Under the pieces are notes generated by a model that was not told the origin of the DNA, did not search any database, and worked only from the letters and a program-made list of their open reading frames with translations. Positions 524 through 63,255 of a DNA stretch of 64,000 nt are shown here, piece after piece. Made by a program: the position numbers and the translations under genes. Where the stretch lies: contig CACVBU010000789.1 of the NCBI GenBank assembly GCA_902728285.1, positions 149,027-213,026 on the forward strand, written 5' to 3'. Position 1 is the stretch's first letter; the number at the start of each line of letters is the position of its first letter. This DNA is from Clytia hemisphaerica. Lineage: Eukaryota > Cnidaria > Hydrozoa > Leptothecata > Clytiidae.

Positions 524-2937
524 GTTATGTTTATTTGTTGTTCGAATCTGAGAAATCAGTGAAGAATCTATTGGCAAATTGTACGCACGATTTCTCCAAT
601 GGTGGTGATTGGTATTATAAAATCTCCAGCCGACGTATGCGATGCAAAGAGGTACGATAATATAGATTTTATTTGGATTGCCATTTGTTTATGAAAGCAC
701 TTTTGTTAGCTTATGAAAAATTGGATGAAATATCATCTCTGACATTCTTAGGTTCATAGCATAATGCTAACTCCGCGAATTGCTTTTGACAATTAGACTT
801 CAGTTATATTAAGTCATTGTTGTTTTTTTAATTTAGGTGCAAGCCATTCCTTGGGTTTTATCTGATAGCAACTTTGTACGCACTTCATCCCAACGATTAG
901 ATTCAAGTCGAACTGTTTTCGTTGGTGGACTACATGGCATGATCAATGCAGGTACGTTTCTATTGTTCTAGACTCAATGTAGGTCAATTTATGTAAACTT
1001 CCAATGATGGTGAGATGAATGGTACTAATTAACAGATATCAAATAAATGTAAAGATCTTTCGATGATGCCTATTGGTCAAACCAGTATTTGAATTTCATT
1101 ACATTTCAATAAGCTTAAAAGGCACTTTTTTCTATCATTAATTTCTCTGTTGAAAATCTTATATCCTATCTTATAATATACTGTTTTAAAGTAAAATCCT
1201 AAACCCCCAATCTATTGTTTCGCCCGATAATAAAAGTCGAATCTTTATTCAATGGGTCATTGAATAGAGATTCAAAATCAAGTATCATTCATTAGTATAT
1301 GGTTTCCCAGATTAAACCTATTAGCCGATTTAGCACCCCATTGCTAAGCTTGTACAAGTTAATGCCTTTCTAATAACGATTTCTCTTGAAATTGTTTTCT
1401 TGCAGTAAAAACTTTTCAACCCTTTCATAGAAACATTTTTCCATTTTTTCACCTCTAATCTTGTTTCACTGCATAATTGCCCCGCGAATTCTTCTTCCGG
1501 ATATTTGATCTAAAATGTAAGCAGATCTTCATTTTAACTTTTCTTTTTTTTTTTTGGTATTGTTTATAGAAGCACTATGTCAAATTATGAATGACTTGTT
1601 CGACGGAGTTGTATACTCCGGTATTGACACTGACAAACACAAATACCCTATCGGTAAGTTGTTGAGTACTTATAACACAAATGCTAAGCTGATACGTCCA
1701 TAATACATCCAAAAAACGTTAGCTGTACGCTGAAACAGTGTTTTTTCTAAACTTGGATCCCCGAACCCCAAATCACTAAAATTTTATAGTTTTTGCTTCC
1801 CATCATGTCGATTCAAATAGCCGACCTTTTCGAGTAATACATCTCATTGTATTTTGAAACGTTTCGGTAAACGTATTTCTGTGACCAAAAGGGGTAGCTT
1901 AAAATATCGGTTTTTGAGTTATGGGTATTGATTAACTTAGTTCGGAGTCGCCATGGATTTTTCAATAATGGACATTTGCTCTGACTAATCTTGCCGTAAA
2001 TAGAAAACGAAAGTCATTAACTTAAACAGGAGAAAACGACAGTAAGCTAAGAGCTAAGTGAAGGGTAAATGAACAACGGTAGAAAGGATCAAATTCCCGT
2101 CATTAGCTTTGTAAGAAATGGCTGGATAATCTATAAAAGGCTTCATGCTATCCAATACAATAATAAGTCTGTTTTGTCTGAATGAAAATGTGCCTACACG
2201 TTGTTAGAAGTTAAATCATTACCGCATTACTGATTGAGGATAAATGCTATTATATGCTTAAGCATTCTTTTTTTTTACTTTGTTCGTGATTAAAACACCA
2301 GGAGGCTAATACCTTTTGCTGTTTCAATGCTTAAATAGCTCTTGCCACCATAGGAAAGAAATTTGGTGCCAACGATAGCTTTCTGAGAGGATTAGGAAAG
2401 ATTAGGAAAATTAGGAAAAATGTATTTAATTCTGTAGGTAGGAATAATTGAACGAGATTAGACCTACATAGCACACTAAATTAGAAAAATCTAAATCAAT
2501 CTCACATTGAAATAATACAGGCTTGAATTCCTAAATTTTAAATATTTTAAAATCATACAATCGGTGCATCCTAATTCCATGCCGTGGCTCTTTGTCTTCC
2601 CCAACATAAATTTAAGACAAGTCCTTTAACTACTTCTATTTCTTCAACAGGTTCAGGGCGAGTGACCTTCAACAACAATCGAAGTTTCATGAAAGCAGTC
2701 CAAGCATCATTCATTGAAATTCGCTCACCCAAATTCACAAAGAAAGTGCAAATAGACCCTTATCTTGAAGATGCAATGTGCAGTCAATGTCAATTCAATC
2801 CTGGTCCGTTTTTCTGTCGCTCAGTGGAATGCTTCAAATATTTTTGTCATTCGTGTTGGTCATGGCATCACTCCATTGATAATCTGAGGATGCATCGACC
2901 TTTGACGAGACATAGCAAGAATTCAGATTCTTCCTAA
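524..2937 (+). CDS. CPEB1: CPEB1-like cytoplasmic polyadenylation element-binding protein, C-terminal exons (partial)
   Basis: Coding exons join 524-651, 837-951, 1570-1653 and 2651-2937, each bounded by AG/GT with phases that fit; the stop is TAA at 2935-2937. They give about 203 C-terminal residues. The order is the end of RRM1 ([12 protein letters not shown], then [10 protein letters not shown]), the linker, RRM2 with RNP2-like TVFVGGL and RNP1-like GSGRVTFNN, and [13 protein letters not shown], which leads into the ZZ-type zinc domain. That domain shows paired cysteines (CSQC, CRSVEC, CHSC) and later histidines. The protein ends in NSDSS, as in vertebrate CPEB1. CPEB binds U-rich elements in mRNA 3' UTRs in the cytoplasm and controls poly(A) length and translation. 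CPEB1 rather than CPEB2-4 is inferred from the C-terminal wording. Exons for the N-terminus and most of RRM1 are outside the window. Confidence 0.93.
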
Positions 2938-5358
2938 AGGTATAAAGGTCTTTTCATTGAGTTCGACTGACCCACTGGCTACTTGGCTGTTTTTGTTGGA
3001 GTGTTTTAAATTAAACCATACGGCTAAAACGCATGAATTTTTTTTAGTTCCTGACTTTTTTTAATGGTAAAGAGAGAAAGTTTTCCCCTTCAAAAAAAGG
3101 TATTTTTAGTCACACCTTATATAACCCCTTCTAAATTTTTTTGAGAATTTTAGTTTATTTTTTTTATTTGTTTAAAATCTTATGCCTTTTCTCTCCCTAT
3201 TTTAATGTATTTTTTCATTTTATTTTTCATAAAGTAAATCTTATTCATTCACGATTTTGGAATTCAGTGTGTACTCAGCCTTAACTGTTCTTGTCGTCGT
3301 GTGTCAAACGCTTTAACTCAAAAATTGATTTTAGACATTTTTTTGATTATCAGTATATCTTGTCATTTAGTGTGAAATCACTTGTTATTGCAAGCTATTT
3401 TTATATATAAATTTTTTTTAGTGTTTTTAAGATTTTTTAGGTACTCTAAACCAAGTTGTCTTATGCACTGAAAATAATTCTAGGACTATTAAATGGATAG
3501 TGCATGCGACAACTTGGGGTGGACTACTTCTTAAATGTTCATATTATATATTTGCAATGTCGCCCTTTATAACGAATAGATACATAAAAAATATATTAGT
3601 TTTTTCCTTTTAAAAGTAAATGTTTTGTTGACAGATAGTTGTTGGCAGAATTTGAAAATTTTAATTACAATCTTTAATAAATCTTCCAGAGTTTTCAATT
3701 TGGAAATTTTTATTTTTTGTAATTTCTGTAGAGGCCAACTCTCTTTTATTGCACAGTTCTCAATAAAATAGTTGTTCTGTATCACTAATAACTCAGTAAA
3801 TGATACAGGGATGTCTTGGAAAATTGTCAACTTTCAGATAACACCAAACTATCACTCACTCAAAACATTTTTTTAAGAAATTTAAAGAATTGAAGAAAAT
3901 CTTTGCTGTTGTTTTTAAACCTATCCTTATTATTGTTACTATAGAAGTTTACCTGAAGTTGAATATAATATACTTCAAACCCAAAAGATTTTTTGTCATA
4001 ATTCTTATTTATTTATATTCATGTAATTAGAACATCTTATTGATATTACTGTTTTTTTTGTTTCAAAAAAATTATGAAAAATTATTACACCCAAAAAAAT
4101 GAAACAAAACAATTATGTAAAGGGTAGGACCTTTCGATGGGTATGAGTTTCAAGATCCTGTTTTTTAGAAAACTTTTCTTGAGGCGCTTCTACCTCTCCC
4201 AGCGTGAGGCTCACTCATTGACCTAATTGTTTTGTTTAGACCTACCTTTTTTAAAGAATTTTCTTTGTATAAAATTTGCCAAACTTTGCAGTTATTGTAT
4301 CAATTTTAGTTTTATCATTTTATTTTATTTTTTTCATTTTTTGCATAAGTACATTTAAATGAAAAATATTTTTTGCTAATATTTTTTGTTCTAATTTTAA
4401 GCAATTTTATCAATGTTATTATTTTTTTGCATTTTAAGAGATCCTGACAAAGTTTTTTAATAAGGTAACTTATACATATATACTTATTTGTTTTGGTGAC
4501 TAGGATTTTGTCCGAAAAAAAGTCGCTTAAAATAATTTTTTATTAGCCTTTAATTATTTTTAAAAATTCAAAATAAGTATTATTTGGTAAAAACAAGAAT
4601 TATTTTCTTTTATCCTTTAAAAACTCTTGGCATTTTTTTTTTCATTTTTAGCCTGTTCAATCAGAAGTGATGTTTTATTTTCGCTTTTTTTGTAAAAGTT
4701 TTTCTCAGACAATATTATTTTATCAAATTCAATATTTTTTTTGTTTTGCACTGGCAAAGTTAGTGTTGAATAGCTTTTAGGACCAAAAATTGGGGTCAAA
4801 AAAAGGTTTTTATAATATGATGAAAATTTTAAGTCCTAAAAGCTTCCAAAATAACTTTGCCAACTTGTTTTTAACAATGTATTAAAATGAATCATGTTTT
4901 TAAAATTAGTTTTTAATGTGTTTAAAAGCTCTTATCTGTATGTCTAAGGAATTCTTTGCTTCTTAAAAATGTTTTTCCTGTGAAAAATATTATCCATCGA
5001 AGAAAATTTAATAAAAAACTGAAAGTTTATTGTTTGATTGAATTCCAAAATATTTTGAGATTTTTTGTCACTGGAAAAATTGCGAAAAATTGCCCTTGGC
5101 TCTTTGGACAGAAATCGATAAAAATCTTTTTGTATATAATGTTCTTGTTTCTCTGATTTAGTTTATCTTTATTTTTTTCAAAGATCACTTTTTTATCGAA
5201 AACTGTGAAGATTTAGTATTAGTAGTATTGTATGGTTTTTTATTCTTGTAAACTATTAGATATGATACAAGCGTTTAGTACAATTATTGTTTATCACATT
5301 ATAATCAACGAAAAATATCAACACCGAGAGAAAAGATAATACATCAGTCTCTTACTTG
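2938..5358 (+). other. 3' UTR of CPEB-like gene and AT-rich intergenic DNA
   Basis: This is strongly T/A-rich sequence after the CPEB stop codon. A possible polyadenylation signal AATAAA lies at 3676-3681. No conserved coding stretch or RNA gene was recognised; the short open frames are T-rich and look like chance. Confidence 0.5.
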
Positions 5359-5830
5359 TCTTTTTTCCTTTGAAAATACATGATTACCTTTACTTTTCCT
5401 TTTTCCTTTGAAAATACGTTATTACCTTTACTTTCCCTTTTTCCTTTGAAAATACATTATTACCTTTCTTTGTTATTTTCCTTTGAAAATACATCAATAC
5501 CTTTCCTTTGTCTTTTTCCTTTGAAAATATATCAATACCTTTCCTTTGAAAATACATTATCGGCTTTCGCCATTATACCTTTTTCCTTTGAAAATAAATC
5601 TGTTTTCCTTTCAAAAATACATTAATTAGTTTGCAATGCCTTTTTCTTTGAAAATTGGTATGAGTTGTTGTCCTTGAAAAATACAAGAATTTATTTTGAA
5701 ATGTTTTCCTTTGAAAATACAACACCATGTGTTTGCCTTAAAAATACAAGAATTAGTTTGCCTGAATTAGTTTTCCTGTGAAATTTAAGAATCAGTTTGC
5801 TTTAAAAATACAAAAAATCAAAACGTGACA
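5359..5830. repeat. Degenerate minisatellite, CCTTTGAAAATACAT core
   Basis: At least ten degenerate tandem units of roughly 25-40 bp share the core TTTCCTTTGAAAATACAT, with variable spacers such as TATTACCTTT. Units decay toward the 3' end, where the core becomes TTTGCTTTAAAAATACAA. The open frame across the array is a by-product of the repeat. Confidence 0.85.
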
Positions 5831-6101: not shown

Positions 6102-7203
6102 ATGGTGCAGACTTTCAACGACCCACAAGAATGGTTACGTGTGCTCAAAACATATCTCATCACACTACCATGGCTAATTTTTACGGCAATCAAATTGCGA
6201 GTGTTGTACGTCCTAAATCCTGCCAAATTGGAGAAAATGATGCAAATATTGGCTGGTTATCCAATGGTCACTTACTCTCGGGTACCTAATAGCCGTCCCC
6301 CCCGCTAATTAATTTTTCGAAAATTTTCCACCCAGGACATTCTTATTCCAACCCCCCCGCTTATTAATTTTTGGAAAAATATTTTTGAAAGTTCCCTCTT
6401 TTGTCCTAATTCTGCTGTATTAGCCTACTTTTCAAAAACTTTCCACCCAGGACATTTTTATTCCAACCCCCCCGCTTATTAAGTTTTTCGATTTTTTCCA
6501 ACCCCCCTGCTTATTCCAAACCCCCCGGCTATTAGGTACCCGAGAGTACGCTACTGAAGAACAAAAAGCAAAGAATCAGAAAATGAGTGTACCTTTCACA
6601 TTGTCTATCCATGAGAGAATGAAGTTCCTTGGTACATATCGTTTCATCACAAAAAGATTAAAAGTGTCTTTGTTAGATGCTCGCAGAAAAGCATTTCTCT
6701 ACAAAGACGCACCTAACGTTCCAATATACAATCTTGCCAGTAAGATGGAGAAGAAATTATTCGATTTTCAACGTCAATCTCGACCTTTGGTTTTGAATTT
6801 TGGAAATTGTACATGACCCCCGTTCTTAGCTGTTCTCGATCGTCTTGCTGTTCTATGTGAGAGTTTTAAAGGGAGAGTCGACTTTGTGACAGTCTACATA
6901 CAAGAAGCGCACCCTGTGGAGGATAATGAATATACAACTTATATCCCACAAATCACACAACAGACAGAGATGAGTGAAAGAATAAAAGCAGCTAAAAAAT
7001 TATTCGAAATGAGTCCAATCAAACTGAATGAGAACTGTCCAATGCTGGTTGACTTCATGACGAACGAAGCTAACAAGGCATACGCTGCTCTCCCAGATCG
7101 TCTGTATGTGATTCAGAATGGGAAAGTGGTGTATGATGGAGGACAAGGACCTTATGGTTATAATCTTGACAAACTAGAAAGCTGGTTGAAGCAAAATTCA
7201 TAA
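6102..7203 (+). CDS. Iodothyronine deiodinase-like selenoprotein, copy 1 (interrupted by a MITE)
   Basis: The coding sequence runs 6102-6275, then 6550-7203 once a 272-bp element and one TA are skipped. This would give about 275 residues. An N-terminal hydrophobic segment (YLITLPWLIFTAI) is the membrane anchor. The thioredoxin-fold core reads RPLVLNFGNCT-TGA-PPF, with the TGA at 6814-6816 (residue 147) exactly where deiodinases carry selenocysteine. Downstream are YIQEAHP, NKAYAALPDRLYVIQNGKVVYDGG and a stop at 7201-7203. Deiodinases reductively remove iodine from iodothyronines; in invertebrates the substrate may be another iodotyrosine derivative. Cys two residues before Sec matches vertebrate D1/D3. 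A SECIS hairpin lies 14 bases past the stop. The inserted element brings an in-frame TAA and a frameshift unless it is spliced out. It is paralogous to the gene at 9008-9757. Confidence 0.88.
6275..6546. mobile_element. MITE with CTCTCGGGTACC inverted termini, inside deiodinase copy 1
   Basis: The terminal inverted repeats are CTCTCGGGTACCTAATAGCC and its complement, flanked on both sides by TA (6273-6274 and 6547-6548). The interior is C-rich and pyrimidine-biased, with several CCCCCCCGCTTATTAA-type subrepeats. Removing the element plus one TA joins ...GTC ACT TAC to GCT ACT GAA in frame, which shows the insertion site. A related copy lies at 41218-41443. Confidence 0.9.
6814..6816 (+). other. 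Selenocysteine TGA codon, deiodinase copy 1
   Basis: TGA lies between GNCT and PPF, the deiodinase active-site context. The reading frame continues for 128 conserved codons past it, and a SECIS structure is present in the 3' UTR. Confidence 0.92.
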
Positions 7204-7216
7204 AATTTTTCATACG

Positions 7217-7283
7217 TACAAAAGCTTATGATTGATCTGTCGTCAAATTTGTATCGGTAGAGCATGATTTCAAGTGCTTTGTA
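7217..7283 (+). promoter_or_regulatory. SECIS element (type I) of deiodinase copy 1
   Basis: A lower helix pairs TACAAA (7217-7222) with TTTGTA (7278-7283). The core is ATGA at 7228-7231 opposite TGAT at 7264-7267. A nine-pair upper helix (TGATCTGTC with GGTAGAGCA, one mismatch) leads to a 14-nt apical loop containing AAA at 7245-7247, 13 nt after ATGA. These are the hallmarks of a eukaryotic SECIS. It would recruit SBP2 and eEFSec to read the TGA at 6814 as selenocysteine. Confidence 0.88.
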
Positions 7284-9007: not shown

Positions 9008-9757
9008 ATGTTATTCACCTTAGAAACAAGTTGGACTATAAACTACATACAGAGTTATGACGACCCACAACAATGGGTCCGCACACTCAAAACATATCTC
9101 ATCACCCTACCAATGTTGATTTTGACAACACTCTACCATAAAATAGTTTACATCTTTGACAAAAACAAAACACATCACTTTCTTGGCAGACCACAACAAA
9201 CTTTAAAACGCTTCAGAATCGCGTTAGCGGACGCTCGTAGAGAAGCATTCATCAACAAAGAGGCACCCAGCGTCAAAGTGTATGATCTACAGGACGAAAC
9301 AGAGAAGAAAATACTAGATTTCCAACGCCAATACCGGCCTTTAGTATTGACTTTTGGAAATATCACCTGATTCCCGCTAGTTGGTGTTCTTAAACGCCTG
9401 GCCGGACTTAGTGAACACTTCAAAGATAGAGCTGACTTTGTCATGATTTATATCACAGAAGCACACCCGGTCGATTTGAACGAAGATCTTCCTCACATAC
9501 CACAAATCAAACAACAAACAAAGTTGGAGGAACGAATCCAAGCAGCTGAAATGATGATCGAATCTGCTCCAACCAAACTGAAAGAGTACTGTCCAATGCT
9601 GGTTGACTTCATGACGAACGAAGCTAACAAGGCATACGCTGCTCTCCCAGATCGTTTGTATGGGATCCAGAATGGGAAAGTGGTGTATGATGGAGGCATA
9701 GGCCCAGTCGGGTATGACTTGAATAAACTTGAAAAATGGCTGAATGAAAATGCTTAG
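9008..9757 (+). CDS. Iodothyronine deiodinase-like selenoprotein, copy 2
   Basis: An uninterrupted single-exon frame of 249 residues starts at ATG 9008 (an upstream in-frame extension exists but lacks conservation) and ends TAG 9755-9757. A hydrophobic anchor (YLITLPMLILTTL) precedes the thioredoxin-fold core. The active site reads LTFGNIT-TGA-FPL, with TGA at 9368-9370 (residue 121). YITEAHP, CPMLVDFMTNEANKAYAALP and NGKVVYDGG follow. Compared with copy 1, the Cys two before Sec is Ile, PPF is FPL, and the linker after the membrane segment is much shorter. I found no convincing SECIS in the 370 bases after the stop, so selenocysteine readout is less certain. Its 3' end converges on WDR82. 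Confidence 0.85.
9368..9370 (+). other. Candidate selenocysteine TGA codon, deiodinase copy 2
   Basis: TGA aligns exactly with the Sec codon of copy 1. The frame stays open and conserved for 128 codons beyond it. The assignment rests on homology because no SECIS was identified. Confidence 0.75.
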
Positions 9758-26647: not shown

Positions 26648-29600
26648 ACCCTGTCTAAACGCTTTTTTAATCAAAATGATATACAACATGAGTCAAATAT
26701 ATTAACAAACATACTTTTGTATAAATTGTAAAAAAAGAGAACAATGAAACACCTGAAAAGACCAAAATGATGAAAAACTGAAAAGAAACCCTCGAAAAAG
26801 TAGCCTATGTAATCGTCTAACCCACAACACTCAAACATGCAAGGACGTCAAAATTTCCGTCAGTTTGGAGTCCTTCAGTGCCGCTTGTTCTGGGGTAAAC
26901 GAACGACTCGATCGTTCACCTCTCAGGCAAGCAACCACTGATCGGATCAAAACGAAGGAAATTTTGCGTCGTATGCCATTCACAACCTCACTTTTCGAGC
27001 ATTTTTGTTTTGCCGAGATTTTATCAGCTAACCTGCTCATAAAAATTGAGCATTCTCGGGCTACACCACCTGTAGCACCAAATACTAATGGGGTGAAAGT
27101 CCCTTTCTCAACTTGAAGAATCCGTTCGTTATATGCTCTCTTCTTTTGCTTTTCAAGGGAAGTGAATGTAGTGCCAATAGATTTTATGCGATAGCTCGGA
27201 GCTAAAAGGTTGCAAACCTTCACGTCAAAAAATGCTCTTTGATACCGCTGCCAAAATCCATTAGCACTAACATCCGCCCTAGCTTCATTCCCAGTAACAG
27301 ATGAGCGTGGTAAATCGACCTGTTCACGAGACAAATCCATAAGCTGGGGCTCGATCGACACGTCGTGACAGACTTCATTCATCATGGTTGCCAGAGTATC
27401 GCGAACGTTGTTATGTCGATGGATAACGTAGCCGCCAAGATGGCAAGATAGCGCATGGTCGATTGTGAAGTTGGCTGAGCAGGCACATTTGATGGGCAGT
27501 CGCTTCATTTCCCAGCCATACCTCATGTGGAGTGCGTCAGCGAATTCACGTTTATTCAATACAAAATTCTCTTCTTTCAGTGGAAGAGTGGTCAGCCACG
27601 AGGAAGCACCTTGAGATGAAGCGATTTCCAAAGCTTTTTGGTTGATTGATGGGAGTTGTTGAACGATTTGATCGAGTGATCGTTTTTGTTCTCCAATTCG
27701 TTTAGCGGCTAGTGATTTCAACATCTTTTTCGATTGACTTGGATCAATTGATTCATTTGATTGTGTTATGATGCGCTCGACTAGCACTTTAGTTGCCAAA
27801 CGACTTGTTTCGTTTTGAAATTTAGCCTCATCCTCGATGTTGATGATTCCAAGGCCTCCCATCTTGATCGGAAACGAGAGGATCTTCCTTTCAATATCGG
27901 AGCACTGTCTGCCATCACATATGGCTGGTATGAGGTGAAAACGGATGACATTTTCGATGGGTCGAAGCAATTCTGATATATCGTCTAGAGTTCGGATGAT
28001 ATAGTTGAATTTTTGCCGGTAGCCAATAACGAAGGCGACATACGCAGCTTGGGGTTGAGTTATTGCAATGTCTGACAAAGTTTTGATTTCTTTAACCCAG
28101 GTTTCGACTTTATTTGAAACGAATTCCTTCTTGTAGCTTTTTTCCCCAACAGAAGCACCGAGATGTTTATGCCCCTTTGCTGTGATCTTTATAGACGTAC
28201 CTTCGAATGTGTCGAGTGCCGTTTGATACATTTCGGGTTTTACTATCAACCATGACTTAGAAGGTTCTGGGTAGTAGCCGATAGTTGGACCGAGTTGCGT
28301 TAGGTCATCCCACCACTTGCGTAGTGCAACAAGTTTACCAGCACCAGTGATGTCGTCAGCGTACGCGACTTGTTTGGTATCTGGTACGTTTCGGAGGGTG
28401 TCGGTCAAGGGAAGCAAACATATGCCGTAGAGAGCCATAGCGATCGGATCTCCTTGTGTTGTACCTTCAGAAGACGACAGCTCTGCTCCTCCAATCGCAA
28501 ACAGACGGACGTGGTTCGAATAGCAGTTGGTAGCAAACATCGCCAAGGTTGGACAAAGGATGTTAATGTTGTGCATCATAACTTCACGATTTATGCTGTT
28601 AAATGCATTTGAAGCGTCGACCAGTAGAACACCGTCTGTGTTCTCGTCGTTGTAGATGTCTGCCATCGCGTGCACTGCAGCCTCACATCCACCCAGCTGA
28701 CCAGCGCACAGTTGGAGATTGCCAGCTGCTTCTTGTATTTCATTCCTCAGGAATGTTGTAACAGTCTTTCCAACGATGCGTCTAAGAACTTCCCCGATGC
28801 CGATCGGTCGAATGCCGGGGTTCTTATCCAAAGGTATCAGGGTGCACGATAAGAACGCCTCCATGTCCCTACCGGATTCTTTGTTGCATTGTTCAGTGCA
28901 CATGATTCTCGTCATCCTTGCAATCGCCTTGCATAAATCACTAGAACGATCACCGAAGTTTTTTGACAAAAGGATACGTTGCCACATTTGTGCATCGATC
29001 TTGGAGGGGCCGGAAGAACCTTTTGTTTTAGCTGCCATACTTTTTATGAGTTCTTCATCGATGGCTTCAAAAAGCGTGGGGTCGATTTTGTTGAATGGTC
29101 CCTGAACAATCAGCTCGTCAATCTTTGGTTGACCTCTAGGATGCTTTTGCTGAAGAATTTGCAACGTGGTATCGTTGATTGGTACAATTCCGTGTGAATT
29201 CGTTGAGTTAGATAAGAGTTTGATTGCTGCGTTTACTTTGCCTTGAAACATCAAATCACTAAATCGTTTCGATATTGATGTAACTCGATCAGCAGCAGAC
29301 TTTGAAAATTTTGATTGTAGCATTCGGCTTTCGCGGATCAACGAGTCAAAATCGCCTTCTCTCCAAAGATCCAGACGTCGCTGTAGATGTTTCGTATGTT
29401 CTCTCGATTTCGATGTCTTTGATGGTTTCTGTAAAAGGAGCGATGGTAACACGGACAGGGCTTTCAAGGCGACATTCGACAAAGGTGACAGATTGTTCCA
29501 TAAATTTATCAAGCGAGTGATTTCCTCAACAAAGCTTTTACCGACTGCACCACTTGGGACGTTGAAGATATTCTTCCGCCATTGACTGGTTTCATTGAAC

Positions 29601-30155
29601 GCGGCAGAAAGGATCTGATCGATGTCATTCACTGTGTGATTGCCCCATACTTTTGGCTGGAAATCTTTCGGATTTATCGGTTCTGACGACGATTCTTTAT
29701 TTAGGCTAAGTGATGTCACTTTAAGGTTGACAGTTTTTTTCGATACAGGATCTTCGAATTCTTTAGTGTGACTTTTAAGCGGACATTTTCTTTCGTGATT
29801 TGACCTTCCCGATGGCTTTGAAAATGACCTTTTGCAACCCCATTTACATTCGTATTGAAGTTCTTTCGGTGGTTCTTTAGGTGGTTCTTTCGGAGGTTGA
29901 GAGTCACGGTACACGGGCACGGTAGCTAGGTCAGGAACGGGTACATTCGCCACCAAAGATTCTGATTGTACAGCACCGGTTGAACTGTAATTTTCAGGAA
30001 AAAGTTTCCGCATCAATTCTTCCATCTTTGGTGTAAACTTTCTTCTGCTTTTAAGCACTGTTCACTAAGCAAAGAGTTAAAATTTCTGGAAAATCAGTAC
30101 CGTAAGTTACAGATTGACGGTTTTGCGTCCGCCATCTTTGCCGTTGCGTAGAAAA
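26600..30155 (-). mobile_element. Complete RLE-type non-LTR retrotransposon
   Basis: On the minus strand: a short 5' UTR (30155-30059), one 1075-codon frame (30058-26831), a 3' UTR of about 185 bases and a poly(A) tail of about 47 (T run 26600-26646). A 13-bp target duplication flanks the whole. The undamaged frame, long pure tail and exact duplication point to a recent full-length insertion. Confidence 0.93.
26831..30058 (-). CDS. Reverse transcriptase with C-terminal restriction-like endonuclease
   Basis: The protein has 1075 residues. A proline-rich PPKEPPKEPPKE stretch (55-66) precedes a zinc-finger-like CKWGC...HERKC motif (71-92), a likely DNA-binding head. The reverse transcriptase has RPIGIGEVLRRIVGK (417-431), motif A VDASNAF (480-486), motif B TTQGDP (533-538) and motif C YADD (566-569). 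After a helical thumb comes the knuckle CACSANFTIDHALSC (858-872). A PD-(D/E)XK-like nuclease follows, with ARADV (D929) and FFDVKV (D945, K947). This architecture defines early-branching RLE-type LINEs (R2, NeSL, CRE, Hero, Utopia groups). Such enzymes nick a target and prime cDNA synthesis from it. I do not assign a clade. There is no frameshift or internal stop, so activity is possible. Confidence 0.92.
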   Translation of the reverse strand: MLKSRRKFTPKMEELMRKLFPENYSSTGAVQSESLVANVPVPDLATVPVYRDSQPPKEPPKEPPKELQYECKWGCKRSFSKPSGRSNHERKCPLKSHTKEFEDPVSKKTVNLKVTSLSLNKESSSEPINPKDFQPKVWGNHTVNDIDQILSAAFNETSQWRKNIFNVPSGAVGKSFVEEITRLINLWNNLSPLSNVALKALSVLPSLLLQKPSKTSKSREHTKHLQRRLDLWREGDFDSLIRESRMLQSKFSKSAADRVTSISKRFSDLMFQGKVNAAIKLLSNSTNSHGIVPINDTTLQILQQKHPRGQPKIDELIVQGPFNKIDPTLFEAIDEELIKSMAAKTKGSSGPSKIDAQMWQRILLSKNFGDRSSDLCKAIARMTRIMCTEQCNKESGRDMEAFLSCTLIPLDKNPGIRPIGIGEVLRRIVGKTVTTFLRNEIQEAAGNLQLCAGQLGGCEAAVHAMADIYNDENTDGVLLVDASNAFNSINREVMMHNINILCPTLAMFATNCYSNHVRLFAIGGAELSSSEGTTQGDPIAMALYGICLLPLTDTLRNVPDTKQVAYADDITGAGKLVALRKWWDDLTQLGPTIGYYPEPSKSWLIVKPEMYQTALDTFEGTSIKITAKGHKHLGASVGEKSYKKEFVSNKVETWVKEIKTLSDIAITQPQAAYVAFVIGYRQKFNYIIRTLDDISELLRPIENVIRFHLIPAICDGRQCSDIERKILSFPIKMGGLGIINIEDEAKFQNETSRLATKVLVERIITQSNESIDPSQSKKMLKSLAAKRIGEQKRSLDQIVQQLPSINQKALEIASSQGASSWLTTLPLKEENFVLNKREFADALHMRYGWEMKRLPIKCACSANFTIDHALSCHLGGYVIHRHNNVRDTLATMMNEVCHDVSIEPQLMDLSREQVDLPRSSVTGNEARADVSANGFWQRYQRAFFDVKVCNLLAPSYRIKSIGTTFTSLEKQKKRAYNERILQVEKGTFTPLVFGATGGVARECSIFMSRLADKISAKQKCSKSEVVNGIRRKISFVLIRSVVACLRGERSSRSFTPEQAALKDSKLTEILTSLHV

Positions 30156-40200: not shown

Positions 40201-43200
40201 TTGGACCTACATACCTCCGGGTACTCCGGTGGAGGTCCTTTAATTAACCAATTCCCACCATCAAGCATGTTTCAATATTCAATAAAATTGATTTTTAAAG
40301 CCAGAACTATTCAAAAATTGCCGGAACAACCTATTTTCGCTGGAAAGACAGTATTTCTTGAATTTCTCGAGCTGTACTTTATATTTTTTTATGAAATTTT
40401 GCACACTGATGCAAAACTGTGCAAAATGACAATACCTAAAATGTGACGGAGCCCAATTTTCGAAAAACATTTTTTTCCGGCCGAAAATGCCGGAAATATG
40501 CCGGAAAAACCGTTTTTTTTTACATTTTCTCGAATTTTCATCCTTATTTTTCTCTGATTTTTTGCAGAATGATGTGTATTCGCAATGCTCAAAACATGAC
40601 CGAGTTCGATTTTTGAGAAAATGTTTTTTCCGGCCAAAAAAGCCGGAAATTTCCGTTTTTGCAGATTTTCATTGGATTTTTTCGTTTCATGTCTTTGTTT
40701 TTTTTCAAACAAAAACATCATTTATAAGAATGTCCACGATTAAGCATGGTTCAATTTTCAATGAAACTGATTTTGGTAAAGGAACTTTCTAAAAATCGCC
40801 AGAACAGCCGAGAATCGCCGGATTCCATGAATTTCTCGAGTTGTTCTCGTATTATTCTGCATTTTCATACTATTCTTCTCATTTTTCAATTGTCTTATTA
40901 CATCAATCTTCAGGTAGGTCCATTCAGCATGTAGCTTGTTTTTCTTCATTTTTTCAAAATTTTGATTTTAAGGGCCTGGTCGTGAGTTTTAGCCTTAAAA
41001 CGAGGCTAAAAATTTTTGGGCCCACTGGAGACTTCAAAAATTGTCCGATTGGCTGAAATTTTGCACACTTGTTCCTTGGGTGAATATCTGGGGTTGCTTT
41101 TTCATATTTTAAATTTTTTGATTTTTTCTGGCCTGGAGACTAATCTTTGTGCTACACTGTGCTACATATGGGCCTACGAGGAATTGAAAAGATACTGAAG
41201 TTGAGCAAGTGTGGTTACTCTTAGGTGCCAAATAAACGCCCCCCCCCGCTTGTTAATTTTTCGAAAATGCCTGACTTTAGCCTATATTTACCTTAATTTT
41301 GGGTTTTCAGAAGTACAATTTCCGACCCCCCCGGCAATTAGGTCCCCCCCCCCGTCTATTAAAATTTCGTAAATTTTCCAACCCCCCCGTCTATTCGAAC
41401 CCCCCCGTTTATTCGAACCCCCCGTCTATTTGGCACCTAAGAGTAGCACATTTTCTATGATATGTAGAGGAAAATATGCTTTTTTATGTACCAACAAACA
41501 TAAATCAGAAAGGCAATATTTGCTAGCCGTACGATTACTACTAATAACTGTGGAATATAAACTAACGCCATGAAATAATGGCTTGAGTTTGTTTAGGTGG
41601 GTATCAAAACAAATGAGAGAGAATATGCAACCTTAGGGGTGACCAAGCCAGTAGTAAACAATCTTACTGTTCTTCTTCTTCGTAGAAGACAAAGAAGCAT
41701 TTGGGCAAATGAAATATATTTGCAATCAACCAATCAATTCTCGTGATCTTTATGCATCTCTGGCGGAAGAGAACTCCTGTTTGGTTGCCAAAGAACGAGA
41801 ATGGGAGAAAGAGTGGAACCAATCTGGAATCATGTCTCGTCTCACAGAGCAGGTATACCAGAATACAATTGCAACTTCAATCGCAAACATAATATTCTAC
41901 GAAATGGAAGGTATCCTCGACTCCAAAAGTCTAAAGTAACCTCACTAGAGCAAGCATATACTCTTGGTTGGCTACCTTGAAATCTTTCTTAAAATGACCC
42001 AAAATTGAATTCTACAAAAATTCACAGACCGTTATACCCTTTGAAGTATTTTTGTCATAAGAGCTTTGTCTATCCTAACCTGGTCACCAACTACACAAAT
42101 CAAATAACGTTGCATGGACGTTAAAAGAGCGTCACAAGGACGTTAAAACATTTTTTGTTGATGTTAGATTGACATTATTATTACGTTGTGGTACCAGCAT
42201 CATCAAGTGTTTTTTTCTCTTTTGGACCTACCCCGGTGGAGGTCCTATAAATTAACCTTTCTCCGTTCGTTCGTCTGTTCGTTCGTTATTAGGTTTCCTC
42301 ATGATTGGCTCGTTAGTTTCTTCTGATTTTTTGCACAAAGATGCATAACTATAAACCCTCGAATGTGACGGAGCCCGATTTTCAAAAAAAAAAAAAATTT
42401 GTATTAGCTTTTTTCGAGATAGGCTCTTTTATTCTTTATGATTTTTTGCACAAAGATGCACAACTATAAACCCTCGAATGTGACGGAGCTCGATTTTTGG
42501 AAAAAAAATTTGGGGTAAATTTCAGCTAAAAAAGGGCTAAAAAAGGGTTTTTTTGGATTTGTTATTTTCTGACTTTTTGCATGAAAGTAGGTAAAAGATG
42601 GCTCAAGCAGATTTTTGTAAAAAAAAATTTTTCAGCTCAAAAAACGCATATTTATCTATAAGAATCACAATTAATAAGCATACATCAATGTTCTTAAAAT
42701 TACTGAATTTTTTGATGAGATGTTTTTTTGCTCTCGAAGTCTTGAATATGAAAGAATATTTCAAGAGCATGAAATTTTGGTTTCTTAACGTGATTTTTTA
42801 TAAGAAACGACTAATTTTAATAGATCGTCACTATTTGTGTTCTGAATGATTGTTTAATGGTCACGCTCACGTAGATATCAATTATATATGTGTTAAATGC
42901 ATAACCAGGTAGGTCCATAAAAGTATCACTTGTTTTTTTTAGGAATATAAAAATCAAAAGCGTGAGCGTCTGTTGAAGAAGATAAAAGAGAAACTACGTT
43001 ACAATGTTGAGAATGAGACTTTGAGCAATGTCGCATCTGGAACCAAATTAAATGATTTGCTAGATGCCATGTCAGGTATGATTTAAACTGATATGATATG
43101 ATATCTTTCCATAAATTTCCAATTTAAGAATCCTCAAATAATGTATAAATAATAGAAAAGCTATTAAAACATCAAGTCACAGAACAAAAATAGACATTCG

Positions 43201-46200: not shown

Positions 46201-49200
46201 GATAGGACTTGCTTGTTTAGCTCTTTTGGACAGATGTATATCCAGGCGTTTTATCACTGCAACTTTCAGGTCAGCGAATATGAGAGTTTATCAAAAGATG
46301 TCAATCGTTCATCATACACCAAACGTATACTGGATATCGTTGCAAGCATCAAAAAACAAAGAGAACAGATTGCCAAGGTTTGACATTTTTACTTGCTGAA
46401 AGAAAGAAGTATTTGGTACAATGCTAAATTTTAGATCAACTCTTACTTTTATGAAAGATATCGATTTTTATAAAGCACTTTGAGGAGTGTGACGCAGCAG
46501 AAACACCATTTCCCAGAAGACATCCAAAGTTTTTATGGTGTACATTTTATCTTTAGATTCTGCTTGATACAAAGACTTTACAAAAAGACATAAATTTCTT
46601 GACTGGCAAACTAGATCGAACTTTTACCGTTACGGATGAACTCATCTTCAAGGTATGGTTTACTCCCCCCTCTCCCCGGTTCTCTTGCAAAAGCCATCAA
46701 ACTAAGACGATTCAATACTACTGATCTACACAATGTTCTTTGCAATGTGCTGCCTTTAAAAGACAGTGCTCCTAACGCCTTCAGTATTTGTAATAGTTGA
46801 AATCCTCATATAAATCTAGCAATCATCGACTCTTCTCTGCTCCACTGTGAAATAACATTTGACTACTACACAATAAATAGATAAAACACGAGTGAACGGT
46901 CAAAATCTTGGAAACTCAAAGACTCGAAGGAATAAGAAATCAAACTTTTCGAATTTAGCATTCAGTCAGTTTTGATAGACATTAAAAATGTTTTTGTTGG
47001 ACCTACCCCAGAGGTCCTTTAAATTAACTGATGTTCGTTCGTCCGTTTGTCTGTTACCAGCTTTTCTCAGGATTGGCTTTAGAACATTGCCTGTAGTACG
47101 GCTATCGTAATACTTTAAAAAGCTTCCAAATGATATTCTTATAATTGGAAGTGACACAAATTCGAGCATTGGTTGTCTCAACAAAACTATTGACTATTAT
47201 AATAACTCTTGTGTGGGACAATTTGGGTTATCGTATGCTAACGATGCCGGACATCGTTTCGCCTCCCACTTATCATTAAACGAACTACTTGCAGTGACGA
47301 CTTGTTTTCGAAAGAATAATTACGCAACATGGATCCACCCTAGATCTAAATTAAAACACCAAATCGATCATTTTATCGTAAAAAAGGAACATTTCAAATA
47401 TGTGATGGACGCTGGAGTCTCTCAAAACGTGATCGACTCAGACCATTCAGCCATAGTATGTAAACTTCGAATGATTTCACGCCTCAAAAAGAAAACTTCT
47501 CTACGAGATCGCCTGATACGTCTTGATTATAGTGGACTGAAAAGTGATGTAACCAGTCAAAATTTCTGTGCTTCCGTTATGGAGAATTACAATATTCAAC
47601 CCCCTTCAAACAGTCCATATACACGTTTATCTGACTCTGTCAAAGCGACATCTAGTACGCTTCCACAAAAAAAAGCCTTCACCAGGTTGGTTCACTGCAG
47701 CAGAGGATAGTTTAATTCCATTAATTGAAAGAAGAAACATTGCAATGTTGAAACATTTCATAGTTTGCCCCCCCCCCCCCTTTTTAATAGGGGGGGATGC
47801 CAACTTTCTGGAGGGCCTTTGTAGGGGGGGTACCGAGATCTGCCGAAAAAACTAGGGGGGATGGGAATGTAGGGGGGGGATCAAATAAAAAAGGGGGGGG
47901 GTTTGGAAATTTTGGTCAATTTTCTAATCAAATACAAATTGTCACAGTTTGTGTTTTAAAGTAAAAAAAATATGTAGTTCTTTCTTGTTGATAATTTTGC
48001 TGGTAGGTGGGAAAGCGAGTTTCCTTCGAAATGGATTTTCTGTAAAAAAAAAGGGGGGGATAAGATTTCATTACAAAAGGGGGGGATGGGTATATAGGGG
48101 GGGATGAAATAAACCTAGGGGGGTTCATACCCCTCTGCAAACTATGCATTTGTCAAGACCGCTTCGTTCTACCGCCGAGAAGCTGAAACAGGCTAGGAAA
48201 GCCCTAAAGCGTACAGTAGGGAAAGCTAAAAATGAATGGATTTTTTCGAAATGTAGTGAACTGAATAACGCCTCAAACACAGGGACTAAAGTGTTTTGGG
48301 AAAATATCAAACAACTCAGTGCTGGTCTGTGTAAAACAAAAGCTAGTGCTGTACCATCAATGAAAAAACCGGATGGTTCCATTTGTAAAACTCCGGAAGA
48401 AAACACGCTCGTTTTTCAAGATCACTTCAAAGCTTTGTATGGTCGTCAACCTATCTATGATGACTCAGTTCTCTCCTTACTTCAACCCAAAGAAGCCGTT
48501 ACCGGTCTTGATAACTTCCCCACTGATGAGGAGATAGTAAAGGCTACTTGTAAGCTAAAGAGAAAAGCTCCAGGTGATTCCGGAATTCCGCCACAAGTGT
48601 GGAAATCGATCATTCAAAATGAATCTACTTACGAAATTTTCAAATCCGTGATTTTAGACTTTTGGGAGAATGAAAAACCACCCCTAGAATGGGAGAAAGG
48701 ATTGCTAAAGGTTCTTCCAAAGAAAGGAGACCTTAGTATGCCCGGGAACTATCGTGGCATTATGCTACTTGAAACGTGTTATAAAATTGTAGCTATAATA
48801 TTGCATGACAGGCTCCGCCCTGTTGCCGAATCCCTAGACAACGAAGCGCAATGTGGTTTTCGATCAGGGAGAGGATGTGCGGATGGAGTTTTTACCGTCA
48901 AAATGGCTATAAAGAAGAGAAAAGAGCACGGCCTTGAATCTTGGGTCCTATTTTTGGATCTAGTTAAGGCATTCGATCGTGTCCCTCGTGAACTGTTGTG
49001 GCAGGTCTTAGAAATTTTTGGCATACCTGCTAAATTGATTCGCCTTTTAAAATCGCTACATGCTCGTGTCGAGGTGAAATTTGTTATTAATGATGTCACA
49101 AAGTCAATTGAAAGTATGATTGGAGTCAAACAGGGGGATATTTTGGGTCCTCTGTTGTTCATATTTTATCTTGCAGCCGTAATGATATCATGGCGTAATG

Positions 49201-50947
49201 CGTATGATAGACCGGTCTGTATTTTCCATACGAAGTACGATGATGTATTAACTGGTCGTAGATACAACACAAAAAGAAATATCGAGGAATTCTCTTTACC
49301 AGATTCGGAATATGCTGATGACACAGCTGTTTTATTCACATCGCGTGAATCGACTGAAACGTACGTACCCCTCCTCTTCAATCATTTTAATAGATACGGT
49401 CTCGAAATACATGCTGGCACTGACGAAAAACCCTCCAAATCAGAAATCCTTTTCGTTGCAGCACCAAAACGCATCTATGTAAATCCTTCTACATACGATG
49501 GCTGCAATCTGTCAAATATTGTTCTACCAGGTGGCGCACATTTACCAATAGTGGATCGCTTTTGTTATCTGGGCTCTTTTCTGACGAGAGATTGTAATGA
49601 TAATGTTGATGTTGATGCCCGAATCAATTCGGCAAGTCGGGCATTTGGTAAATTGAGAAATTGTTTATTTTCGTCAACCAGTATTTCATACAAAGCTAAG
49701 AAATTTGTATACGAATGCATTATCTTGGCTATTCTCTTACACGGTGCTGAACAATGGTGTTTAACCGAAAATCTTTTCCGAAAATTACGTTTATTCCATG
49801 CTAGATGTGTACGTGCAATGTGTCGTGTGAACCGGCTCCACACCCGTGTGTATAGAATCAGAACGTCTGATCTGTTAAATCGTTTAACTCTGAAATCCGT
49901 TGATTCGTACGTGAATCGCCGTCAACTTCGTTGGCTGGGTCATGTCGCTCGTATGGATCAACAGCGACTACCCAGAAAAATGCTAACTTCGTGGGTGCCA
50001 TCGAAACGCCCTCGTGGAGCACCAAACTTCACATATGGAAGAGGAATTTATAAGTGCTTGAAAAAGGTTGGTTTGTCAAAAGATGACTGGTATCAAAAAG
50101 CTTTGAATCGTCTGGATTGGCGTAAAATTATTAATTCCAAGTAGCATATTTTTTGATAGTTTTATCTAGTTACTTATTTGCATAATTTTTCCTTTTTTCG
50201 CTTTTTATTTTATCTACCTAGCGCTGTGATCTCTATCTTAGGATAGGGCCTATTCCCTGTGCTAAGGGAAGGTTTATCTCTCTCTCTCATTGCCTGTAGT
50301 ACGGCTATCGTAATACTTTCGCTAATAATTATCTTCTCTGTTTTCCATTTTAGGATGCTAAAAGGAACGAATTCAGTCGTAAAGCTTACAAACTATTGGC
50401 AAATCTTCACGAGGTTTAAAAGCTTTTTTCCATAGGCATCATATCTGAAAATATTTGAAACCCCCTATCTGACAGGCAAAGTTATTATGGTGTTCTGAAA
50501 GCTCTCTTGTATGATTTTGCAAAATCATAACCAGACATGTAATTACAGTTTACTCTCGCTAATTCGAACTCGAACAGAGAATTTTATTAGTTCGAAATAC
50601 AGAGACATAACTGAGAATTAGTTGGAATTATGGAAAGATTCGAAAAATATAAATGCGAATAAAGCGAGAGTCTACTGTGTCTTTGTTTTATGGCCGTTAC
50701 GTGCGTACTTACTTACGTGTAATAAGGTATTCTTTATTTTACAAATTTTTTATAGACATTTGGTAATCTGGTGCAGACGGTTGAGGAGACTGGGCTAATC
50801 ATGCGTGAAACACGTGACCTTGAAGAGCAGGTGGACAACATTAATGAAGATGAAATTCATCAGAACTTAACCAAGATTAGCAAAGATTTGAAGCAAATTA
50901 AAGAAGAAAATAGTGAAATGATTTCCAAATTGAAGTCAAGAAAGTAG
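37251..50947 (+). CDS. CCDC22: CCDC22, subunit of the CCC (Commander) endosomal complex
   Basis: There are 17 coding exons: 37251-37300, 37673-37844, 39031-39163, 39424-39551, 39809-39890, 41686-41852, 42943-43075, 43296-43363, 44241-44315, 44554-44673, 45015-45134, 45454-45570, 45835-45936, 46270-46377, 46557-46652, 50354-50413 and 50756-50947. All borders are GT-AG with matching phases, totalling 640 residues (human 627). The N-terminal calponin-homology-like domain shows [36 protein letters not shown] and GYQTFLY. The middle has [17 protein letters not shown] and [15 protein letters not shown]. The C-terminal coiled coil shows [60 protein letters not shown] and [12 protein letters not shown]. 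With CCDC93 and COMMD proteins it supports endosomal recycling and NF-kB control. Introns hold several transposons. Confidence 0.97.
38236..38957. mobile_element. GGACCTACC-family element, copy C (CCDC22 intron 2)
   Basis: It starts GGACCTGCCTTAAGG and ends CCAGGTGGGTCC, with TATTTTTAT-like flanks extending the inverted ends. It contains TTTTCTCAGGATTGGCTC and CAATTATATATGTGTTTAA, as in copies A and E. Confidence 0.85.
40203..40921. mobile_element. GGACCTACC-family element, copy D (CCDC22 intron 5)
   Basis: It is bounded by GGACCTACATACCTCCGG and CAGGTAGGTCC. The interior has TTTTCCGGCCGAAAATGCCG and GACGGAGCCCAATTTTCG blocks in the opposite orientation to copy B, its closest relative here. 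Confidence 0.85.
41218..41443. mobile_element. MITE related to the deiodinase-exon insert (CCDC22 intron 5)
   Basis: The termini CTCTTAGGTGCCAAATA and TATTTGGCACCTAAGAG are perfect complements, flanked by TA on both sides. The C-rich interior with CCCCCGCTTGTTAATTTTTC and repeated CCCCCGTCTATT matches the style and parts of 6275-6546. Confidence 0.88.
42224..42916. mobile_element. GGACCTACC-family element, copy E (CCDC22 intron 6)
   Basis: It starts GGACCTACCCCGGTGGAGG, continues into CCGTTCGTTCGTCTGTTCG, and ends ATAACCAGGTAGGTCC only about 25 bases before exon 7. It contains two copies of GATGCATAACTATAAACCC-type sequence and is close to copy A in reverse orientation. Confidence 0.87.
43669..44113. 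mobile_element. Two adjacent foldback structures (CCDC22 intron 8)
   Basis: The first spans 43669-43820: ATTCATGATATGCACCATTA pairs with its complement before 43820. The second spans about 43823-44113: GACCTTTATATATATATCCC pairs imperfectly with GGGTATATAAAGGTC. Both are probably MITEs; no target duplication was resolved. Confidence 0.6.
46999..47084. mobile_element. GGACCTACC-family fragment, copy F (CCDC22 intron 15)
   Basis: Only the left end is present: GGACCTACCCCAGAGGTCC, TTCGTTCGTCCGTTTGTCTG and TTCTCAGGATTGGC. It stops just before the left target duplication of the RTE-like element. Confidence 0.75.
47085..47116. repeat. 32-bp target duplication, left (RTE-like element)
   Basis: This 32-bp sequence, beginning CATTGCCTGTAGTACGG, recurs exactly at 50288-50319. 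Confidence 0.95.
47129..50144 (+). pseudogene. APE endonuclease-reverse transcriptase, truncated and interrupted
   Basis: The endonuclease C-terminal part runs to about 47680 (frame including 47213-47710) with HQIDHFIVK and [10 protein letters not shown]. The frame shifts at an A-run near 47670 (CCACAAAAAAAAGCC). A 388-bp MITE plus a 5-bp duplication then interrupts it. The reverse transcriptase frame (48144-50144) is otherwise open, with [14 protein letters not shown], motif [13 protein letters not shown], motif [11 protein letters not shown] and motif [10 protein letters not shown]. Downstream come FCYLGS and a tail with [12 protein letters not shown]. Family knowledge places this set in RTE-like LINEs. 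It lacks the first part of the endonuclease, so it cannot be autonomous. Confidence 0.88.
47759..48146. mobile_element. CATAGT-TIR, G-rich foldback element, copy 2 (nested in RTE-like element)
   Basis: The ends CATAGTTTGCCCCCC and CCCCTCTGCAAACTATG are inverted, flanked by the 5-bp duplication CATTT (47754-47758 and 48147-48151). The interior has GGGGGGG runs as in 35742-36231. The reverse transcriptase frame aligns across it when it and one CATTT are ignored, so it inserted after the retrotransposon. Confidence 0.92.
50288..50319. repeat. 32-bp target duplication, right (RTE-like element)
   Basis: Exact partner of 47085-47116. The sequence GGCTATCGTAATACTT within it also occurs, in complement, near 57485-57502. 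Confidence 0.95.
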
Positions 50948-61574: not shown

Positions 61575-62244
61575 AGAATCTATGCTTTGGTGTAATTTTG
61601 TCCGAATTCAATCTTTCTGATTAACACCTCGCCATCTAAAAAAGAAGAGTAATTTATTGGTCAATATCCTTTTTTGACTGTGGAAAATTATTATAATTTA
61701 TAAACAACTAACACCCAATTCATTTTTTATTTGTTTTATTCCAGTTTTGTAATAATTTGTAAAAGCGGACACAATGCAAATTCTCAGTATTTTCAAAAAA
61801 AGAATTGCAATTTTTCATCTAAACTTTCAAGAATTTTTCTGCGTCTGACTCATTTGTTTATGTTTTTTGCCGCCATCTTTTTTCGTCGCTTGTAGTGACG
61901 TCGAATTTTATAAAAATACACGGCGTCGACAAATTCGGTTAAGTTCTCCATCGTAGACGCGAAATTGGTAACAAGTGATAGACCAACAGAGTGATAAAAA
62001 AATTGCGTGTTGGGATAGAGATAGGCTACCAATACACCATCGGAATATCAGATAACGCGGTTAGTATCACTTTCGATTTCATCCAGCTTCAAAAAAAAAA
62101 AAAAAAAAGACAACAAGAAAAATCGGATCAGGTTGACATTACACGGCCCATGGGCACCAAGCCTATCAGTGAGAGTGACTGATACGCTTGGCGCCAAAAG
62201 GTAAATTTACTGACCGAAAGTAGACCCCGCCTAATTCTCAACCC
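61575..62244. other. Downstream of TMEM272-like gene
   Basis: AT-rich 3' flank with an A-run near 62089-62108. No gene or clear poly(A) signal was identified. Confidence 0.5.
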
Positions 62245-63255
62245 AGTTTCACTGATACGTTTCGCACCCAAAACGCGTTAGAACCTAGACCCTTCACTGA
62301 TACGCTTTGCACCCAAAACACCATAGAACCACACCCTTCCACTGATACGCTTCGCACCCAAAACGCGTTAGAACCTAGACCCTTCACTGATACGCTTCGC
62401 ACCCAAAATGACTTAGAACCACACCCTTCAACTGATACGCTTCGCACCAAAATCGCGTTAGAACCTAGACCCTTCACTGATACGCTTTGCACCCAAAACA
62501 CCTTAAAATCACACCCTTCCACTGATACGCTTTGCACCCAAAACGTGTTAGAATCTAAACCCTTCACTGATACGCTTTGCACCCAAAACGCCTTAAAACC
62601 ACACTCTTCCACTGATACGCTTCGCACCCAAAACGCGTTAGAACCTAGACCCTTCACTGATACGCTTTGCACCCAAAACACCTTAAAACTACACCCTTCC
62701 ACTGATACGCTTCGCACCCAAAATGTGTTAGAACCTAGACCCTTCAGTGATACGCTTTGCACCCAAAACACCATAGAACCACACCCTTCCACTGATACGC
62801 TTCGCACCCACAACATGTTAGAACCTAGACCCTTCACTGATACGCTTCGCACCCAATACGTGTTAGAACCTAGACCCTTCACTGATACGCTTCGCACCCA
62901 AAACACCATAGAACCACACCCTTCACTGATACGCTTCGCACCCAAAACGCGTTAGAACCTAGACCCTTCACTGATACGCTTCGCACCCAAAACACCATAA
63001 AACCACACCCTTCCACTGATACGCTTCGCACCCAAAACGCGTTAGAACCTAGACCCTTCACTGATACGCTTCGCACCCAAAACACCATAGAACCACACCC
63101 TTCCACTGATACGCTTTCGCACCCAAAACGTCTTAAAATCACACCCTTCCACTGATACGCTTCGCACCCAAAACGCCTTAAAATCACACCCTTCCACTGA
63201 TACGCCTTGCACCCAAAACGCCTTAAAACCACACTCTTCCACTGGTATGCTTAAC
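62245..63255. repeat. 45-bp minisatellite with 90-bp higher-order unit
   Basis: About 22 tandem 45-bp units start CACTGATACGCTTCGCACCC. Two alternating types are seen in much of the array, one with GCGTTAGAACCTAGACCC and one with ACCATAGAACCACACCC, making a 90-bp higher-order period. Because 45 is divisible by three, several frames on both strands stay open (235 codons on the minus strand), without start context or family similarity. Confidence 0.95.

Follow-up and report, generated by a model that had tools for sequence, protein, structure and literature searches.

A recent MITE insertion interrupts one of two neighbouring deiodinase genes in Clytia hemisphaerica and probably disables it

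The 64,000-nt stretch of Clytia hemisphaerica DNA analysed here (the window; 35.2% G+C) belongs to a 417-Mb genome of 951 contigs and carries the multi-exon genes WDR82 and CCDC22, an NTF2-domain gene and selenocysteine (Sec)-type deiodinases. The deiodinase frames lie on the + strand ~1.8 kb apart: copy 1, whose coding sequence falls into two parts (6102..6274, comprising codons 1-57 plus two bases, and 6549..7203), and, downstream of it, copy 2 (9008..9757), an uninterrupted single-exon frame with a TGA, for which the start codon was chosen by eye. Irregular tandem repeats of TTTTCCTTTGAAAATACAT occupy 5360-5830, directly upstream of copy 1.

The second part of copy 1 matches the deiodinase family (PF00837, E 4.3e-50), and its deiodinase domain found structural matches in a type III deiodinase (PDB 4tr3, 8.7e-35) and in 9h48 (1.6e-28). 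An in-frame TGA at 6814..6816 (+) is read as Sec on the basis of the family and of an aligned TGA in copy 2, and presumably coincides with the catalytic Sec position of the family. By sequence, copy 1 therefore has the domain with an in-frame TGA that marks Sec-type deiodinases, and it is in these features that the likeness to iodothyronine deiodinases resides; both copies here are single-exon coding frames, and that of copy 1 is broken. When the 272 bp between its two parts and one TA are left out, an open frame runs from the ATG at 6102 to the stop at 7201-7203, encoding 275 residues with a single internal TGA at codon 147, exactly as proposed in the preliminary description, in which skipping the inserted element and one TA restored the frame. 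That description had also considered a decayed gene, an option that is unsupported because the frame of copy 1 contains no other stop or frameshift. With the element retained, by contrast, the frame meets a TAA at 6306..6308 (+) and ends after 68 codons, upstream of the Sec TGA.

A candidate SECIS-like hairpin begins 25 nt after the copy-1 stop (7228..7268, +), with an ATGA / AA / TGAT core and 9/10 helix pairs. We treat it as tentative: the scan was hand-built, its rules were written after the candidate had been spotted by eye, and by expectation it yields 0.5 places in 64 kb of single-strand sequence. Because four candidate places were returned from both strands of the window (7228 and 27616 on +, and two on −), the hairpin at 7228 is softer evidence than its appearance suggests. 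No such hairpin was found after copy 2 by the same scan, and neither the window nor the 3′ regions of the two copies gave a SECIS match in Rfam.

The sequence dividing copy 1 is a MITE, a non-autonomous DNA transposon of 272 bp (6275..6546, +), recognised by its terminal inverted repeats (TIRs), TA flanks and family copies. Its left TIR, CTCTCGGGTACCTAATAGCCG (6275..6295, +), is perfectly complementary to the right TIR (6526..6546, −) over all 21 bp (21/21 pairs), and each end adjoins a TA target-site duplication (6273..6274 and 6547..6548); counted with the duplication, the inverted arms (6273-6295 and 6526-6548) comprise 23 nt at 100% complementarity. The 21-bp TIR sequence has only 2 occurrences in the window with up to three mismatches allowed, against a chance expectation of 0.00. 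Internally the element contains a 59-bp direct repeat (6314..6372, +, and 6429-6487, 93% identical), and it is too short for a transposase and has stops in the frame read. The preliminary description's account of a MITE interrupting a deiodinase exon is thus upheld, with exact coordinates. We take the TA targets to suggest a Tc1/mariner-type transposase, the superfamily being a candidate name. In its short non-coding body, TIRs, TA duplication and many near-identical copies, the element resembles other TA-targeted MITEs with this type of target site, but its superfamily assignment is tentative, being suggested by the TA target site.

The element belongs to a large, young and abundant MITE family. 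A 20-mer joining the TA to the start of the TIR has 1,881 exact occurrences in the genome (946 forward and 935 reverse), compared with 0 for its reversed-sequence control, and exact scans for the 21-bp end returned 0 matches each in GTDB genomes and IMG/VR. Near-full copies in the same genome, 40 including that of the window, are 93-100% identical; these are the best 40 of 2,762 first-look candidates and, having been picked for similarity, do not form a random sample. The other 39, drawn from a family of perhaps 1,000-1,900, were fetched with 3 kb on each side and are 268-285 bp long, with TA on both sides in 39/39, although one copy (L027) lacks two bases at its right end. Family lengths vary, since inverted end pairs are ~108 to 579 bp apart among the matches listed. 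The window itself holds a diverged relative of 226 bp (41218..41443, +), TA-flanked and with the TIR CTCTTAGGTGCCAAATA, which represents a second MITE subfamily built on the same plan.

Comparison among the 40 copies also bears on age. The window copy departs from the majority at 8/272 sites, of which seven are common to other copies and one is private; private changes number 0 to 4 in 37 of the other 39 copies and 10 and 13 in the remaining two. Because only 1/272 bases is private among 40 copies, the insertion is recent, an estimate that stands on one site in a similarity-biased sample and has an upper 95% bound of ~5.6/272 private substitutions. A coding frame of copy-1 length that is under no selection would be intact with a probability of 0.65 at one private change; this falls to ~0.11 if the upper bound of 5.6 is taken, and to 0.036 if all 8 differences arose after insertion. 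We therefore rejected the argument that an intact frame implies splicing of the element: after so recent an insertion, the intact flanking frame does not prove it.

We also asked where the other family copies lie relative to host exons. Frames of at least 48 aa spanning the insertion junction numbered 42 and came from 27/39 sites (12 sites gave none); 41 of them, all except an antisense frame of copy L012, were given to Pfam, and none of the 41 reached a family cut-off. The closest was a C9orf72-like frame at L023 (21.6 vs 27 bits), alongside zinc fingers at L012 (18.6 and 15.8 vs 27), a GKRP-like frame at L032 (15 vs 27.7 bits) and further sub-threshold frames at L045 (18.8 vs 33) and L049 (14.4 vs 26.4 bits). 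None of the 39 copies thus lies in a recognisable host gene exon, a count that exons shorter than ~144 bp and Pfam-less genes escape. If the coding share of a genome of this kind is taken as ~7%, 0/39 has a probability of ~0.06; any depletion of copies from exons is weak at most, and there is no sign of gene enrichment of the introner type.

Copy 2 offers a comparison for the interrupted gene. In the alignment of the two copies, the element falls within a copy-1 linker that is absent from copy 2. A 68-bp run is identical between them (7034-7101 in copy 1, 9588-9655 in copy 2), with 0/60 differences over one 20-codon stretch, and stretches farther away differ at ~1/4 to 1/2 of their bases; this identical run amid strongly differing stretches points to recent gene conversion between the copies. 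Two further deiodinase-like places elsewhere in the genome (G000:C308:591942-592172 and G000:C430:1308190-1308420) show 43% identity across 82 residues close to the C-terminus; the frames that contain them have 103 and 96 codons, respectively. Because the match is confined to these 82 residues in short frames, the sequence suggests that they may be intron-bearing genes. No more tandem deiodinases were found in the 10 kb to the left of the window. The 5′ flank of the insertion has one full copy in the assembly, and consequently no insertion-free haplotype was seen there.

Collectively, these observations make it most likely that a recent MITE insertion disables copy 1 in the sampled haplotype, a loss of function to which we give a clear but far from overwhelming preference. 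A TA-targeted MITE of an abundant family would have transposed recently into the single-exon frame of copy 1, where the stop after 68 codons, ahead of the Sec codon, should prevent the presumably transcribed gene from yielding any deiodinase unless its mRNA loses the element. The insertion would then amount to a null or hypomorphic allele of recent origin, presumably polymorphic in the species, and the uninterrupted copy 2 may serve as a backup. Among the options raised in the preliminary description, an allele-specific null fits best. That copy 1 was already an old pseudogene when it happened to receive the MITE is hardly credible: its frame is indeed disrupted in the assembly, but we rejected such an origin on account of the otherwise clean coding sequence, free of other frameshifts or stops, the tentative SECIS-like hairpin still placed after it and the recent conversion-like tract that it has in common with copy 2.

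Readings in which the mRNA of copy 1 is repaired must be weighed against disruption, and spliceosomal removal is the more conventional of them. Splicing from a GT at 6282 to an AG at 6546 (CGG|GTACCT ... CGAGAG|; 6282..6546, +) would remove 265 nt as a newborn, introner-like intron and, as the preliminary description had anticipated, keep the frame, adding three residues (YSR) in a variable linker; because copy 2 does without this linker, the extra residues might be tolerated. To score these sites we used a host model built by eye from 13 donors and 14 acceptors of WDR82 and CCDC22, with unplaceable intron ends left out, a selection that leans the model towards good-looking sites; left-out host scores ranged from 2.2 to 10.2 for donors (n=13) and from 1.7 to 10.4 for acceptors (n=14). 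At 2.4, donor 6282 ranks among the lowest of the host donors, and acceptor 6546 scores −4.3, below all 14 host acceptors and at the 58th percentile among all AGs, with a G at position −3 where 14/14 host acceptors have C or T. The other acceptor that had been pointed out, CTATTAG| at 6535, scores −5.9 and with donor 6282 would excise 254 nt, out of frame. Among random inserts drawn from a first-order Markov model with matching composition, moreover, 411/1000 contain at least one internal in-frame GT-AG pair and 290/1000 contain one scoring at least as high as 6282/6546. Partial splicing, or exonisation, would instead join donor 6267 or 6282 to acceptor 6423 or 6450 and leave the rest of the element to be translated in frame. 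Of all in-frame pairs, these four rank highest by summed score (2.8 to 5.0), the best within the element being a 169-nt intron (6282..6450, +) that would leave its last 96 nt exonic; the individual sites (donor 6267 in the flank, 3.1; donor 6282, 2.4; acceptor 6450, 1.9; acceptor 6423, 0.4) fall just inside the host ranges except for acceptor 6423. From 6424 onwards, nothing but the Sec TGA interrupts the frame before the deiodinase stop, and the TTAG at 6423 is preceded by CCTAAT, which we take to be a branch-point-like word. Against this, 146/1000 random inserts reach the best score inside the element, and the protein would gain about 30 to 44 residues, leaving partial splicing a distinctly improbable outcome. 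As for the full-length intron, Aureococcus has introners that bring along both of their splice sites and lengthen the coding sequence by some codons (PMC9860276), and the element shares with the introners of Gozashti et al. 2022 (PMC9860276) a TIR/TSD structure in a coding exon and possible internal GT and AG. It differs from them in having no host-like splice sites at its ends and in the absence of its 39 sampled relatives from recognisable host exons, against a gene enrichment of introners in 161/175 genomes (PMC9860276). In view of the host splice scores and the random inserts, we rejected the end-to-end GT-AG intron as our main explanation, and the newborn intron put forward in the preliminary description appears very unlikely on present evidence. 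A proven introner here would be notable, because among animals just two groups are recorded as having introners (PMC9860276); a literature search listed no close precedent for a MITE insertion spliced out of a coding exon.

Repair could also proceed without the spliceosome, and it is this RNA-level rescue, although improbable, that constitutes the most interesting live alternative to disruption. SOS splicing is triggered by the pairing of inverted terminal repeats, is independent of the spliceosome and needs AKAP17A and CAAP1; RTCB, which takes part in it, also serves tRNA splicing in animals. In a review (PMC13247085) that cites Zhao et al. 2026 (Nature 649:496) as the recent primary study, SOS splicing is presented as a metazoan pathway in which an unknown nuclease excises a transposon from mRNA and RTCB joins the pieces. 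Applied to copy 1, pairing of the element's inverted repeats in the mRNA would allow excision and RTCB ligation, a cut at the stem base that leaves one TA would restore the frame exactly, and copy 1 would yield some deiodinase, an outcome that we consider unlikely. Folding the RNA of the element with 10 nt on each side predicted a perfect 23-bp terminal stem that includes the TA and closes a loop of ~230 nt (MFE −62.1, z −5.97, with 0/200 shuffles as good), and the relative at 41218-41443 is predicted to fold likewise, with a few unpaired bases (z −5.18). At exon level, the genome contains four above-cut-off matches to RTCB, which share a single contig, and one CAAP1 match over its curated cut-off (32.1 vs 25 bits), with a match to the CAAP1 model in 0/14 control genomes. 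However, the presence of RTCB is little informative, given its use in tRNA splicing; an internal TAG occurs in one of the four matches to it, and the CAAP1 match spans 36/63 model positions. The predicted stem and the RTCB- and CAAP1-like matches make SOS splicing possible. Like SOS splicing substrates, the insertion is a DNA transposon that lies within an animal gene and has inverted repeats predicted to pair, a likeness of sequence and predicted fold. Should the pathway act here, which we think improbable, the insertion would be a natural, present-day substrate of RNA-level removal, and an exon-breaking transposon could persist at little cost.

As it stands, copy 1 most likely carries an ordinary disrupting insertion, population frequency aside. 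The wider interest of the locus lies in the fact that exon-breaking DNA transposons are raw material for gene loss, for new introns or for RNA-level rescue. Here the insertion is very young, its stem is perfect, and the short single-exon frame that it occupies has broken and healed products that are easily told apart; the exact family ends across the genome supply replicates. If removal by SOS splicing proved true, a tolerated exon insertion could be a step before a true intron.

Several further features of the repeats were observed in passing. Two family members are nested in other members, L026 (~3001-3273), apparently inserted into a TA within a TIR, and L045 (~2909-3274). At G000:C34:221863-228742, two exact inverted ends stand ~6.9 kb apart, as either two separate elements or one long family member. 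Within the window, a long frame at 26702-30064 (−) has an RVT_1 match, and another at 47928-50144 (+) has, by eye, the look of a non-LTR reverse transcriptase. Copy L012 (~3001-3273) has inserted into an opposite-strand frame of retroelement type, 403 codons long once its flanks are joined; inspected by eye, this frame is similar to the reverse-transcriptase one at 26702-30064. Finally, a tandem repeat at 62163-63254, whose units include TDTLRTQN, has open frames on both strands.
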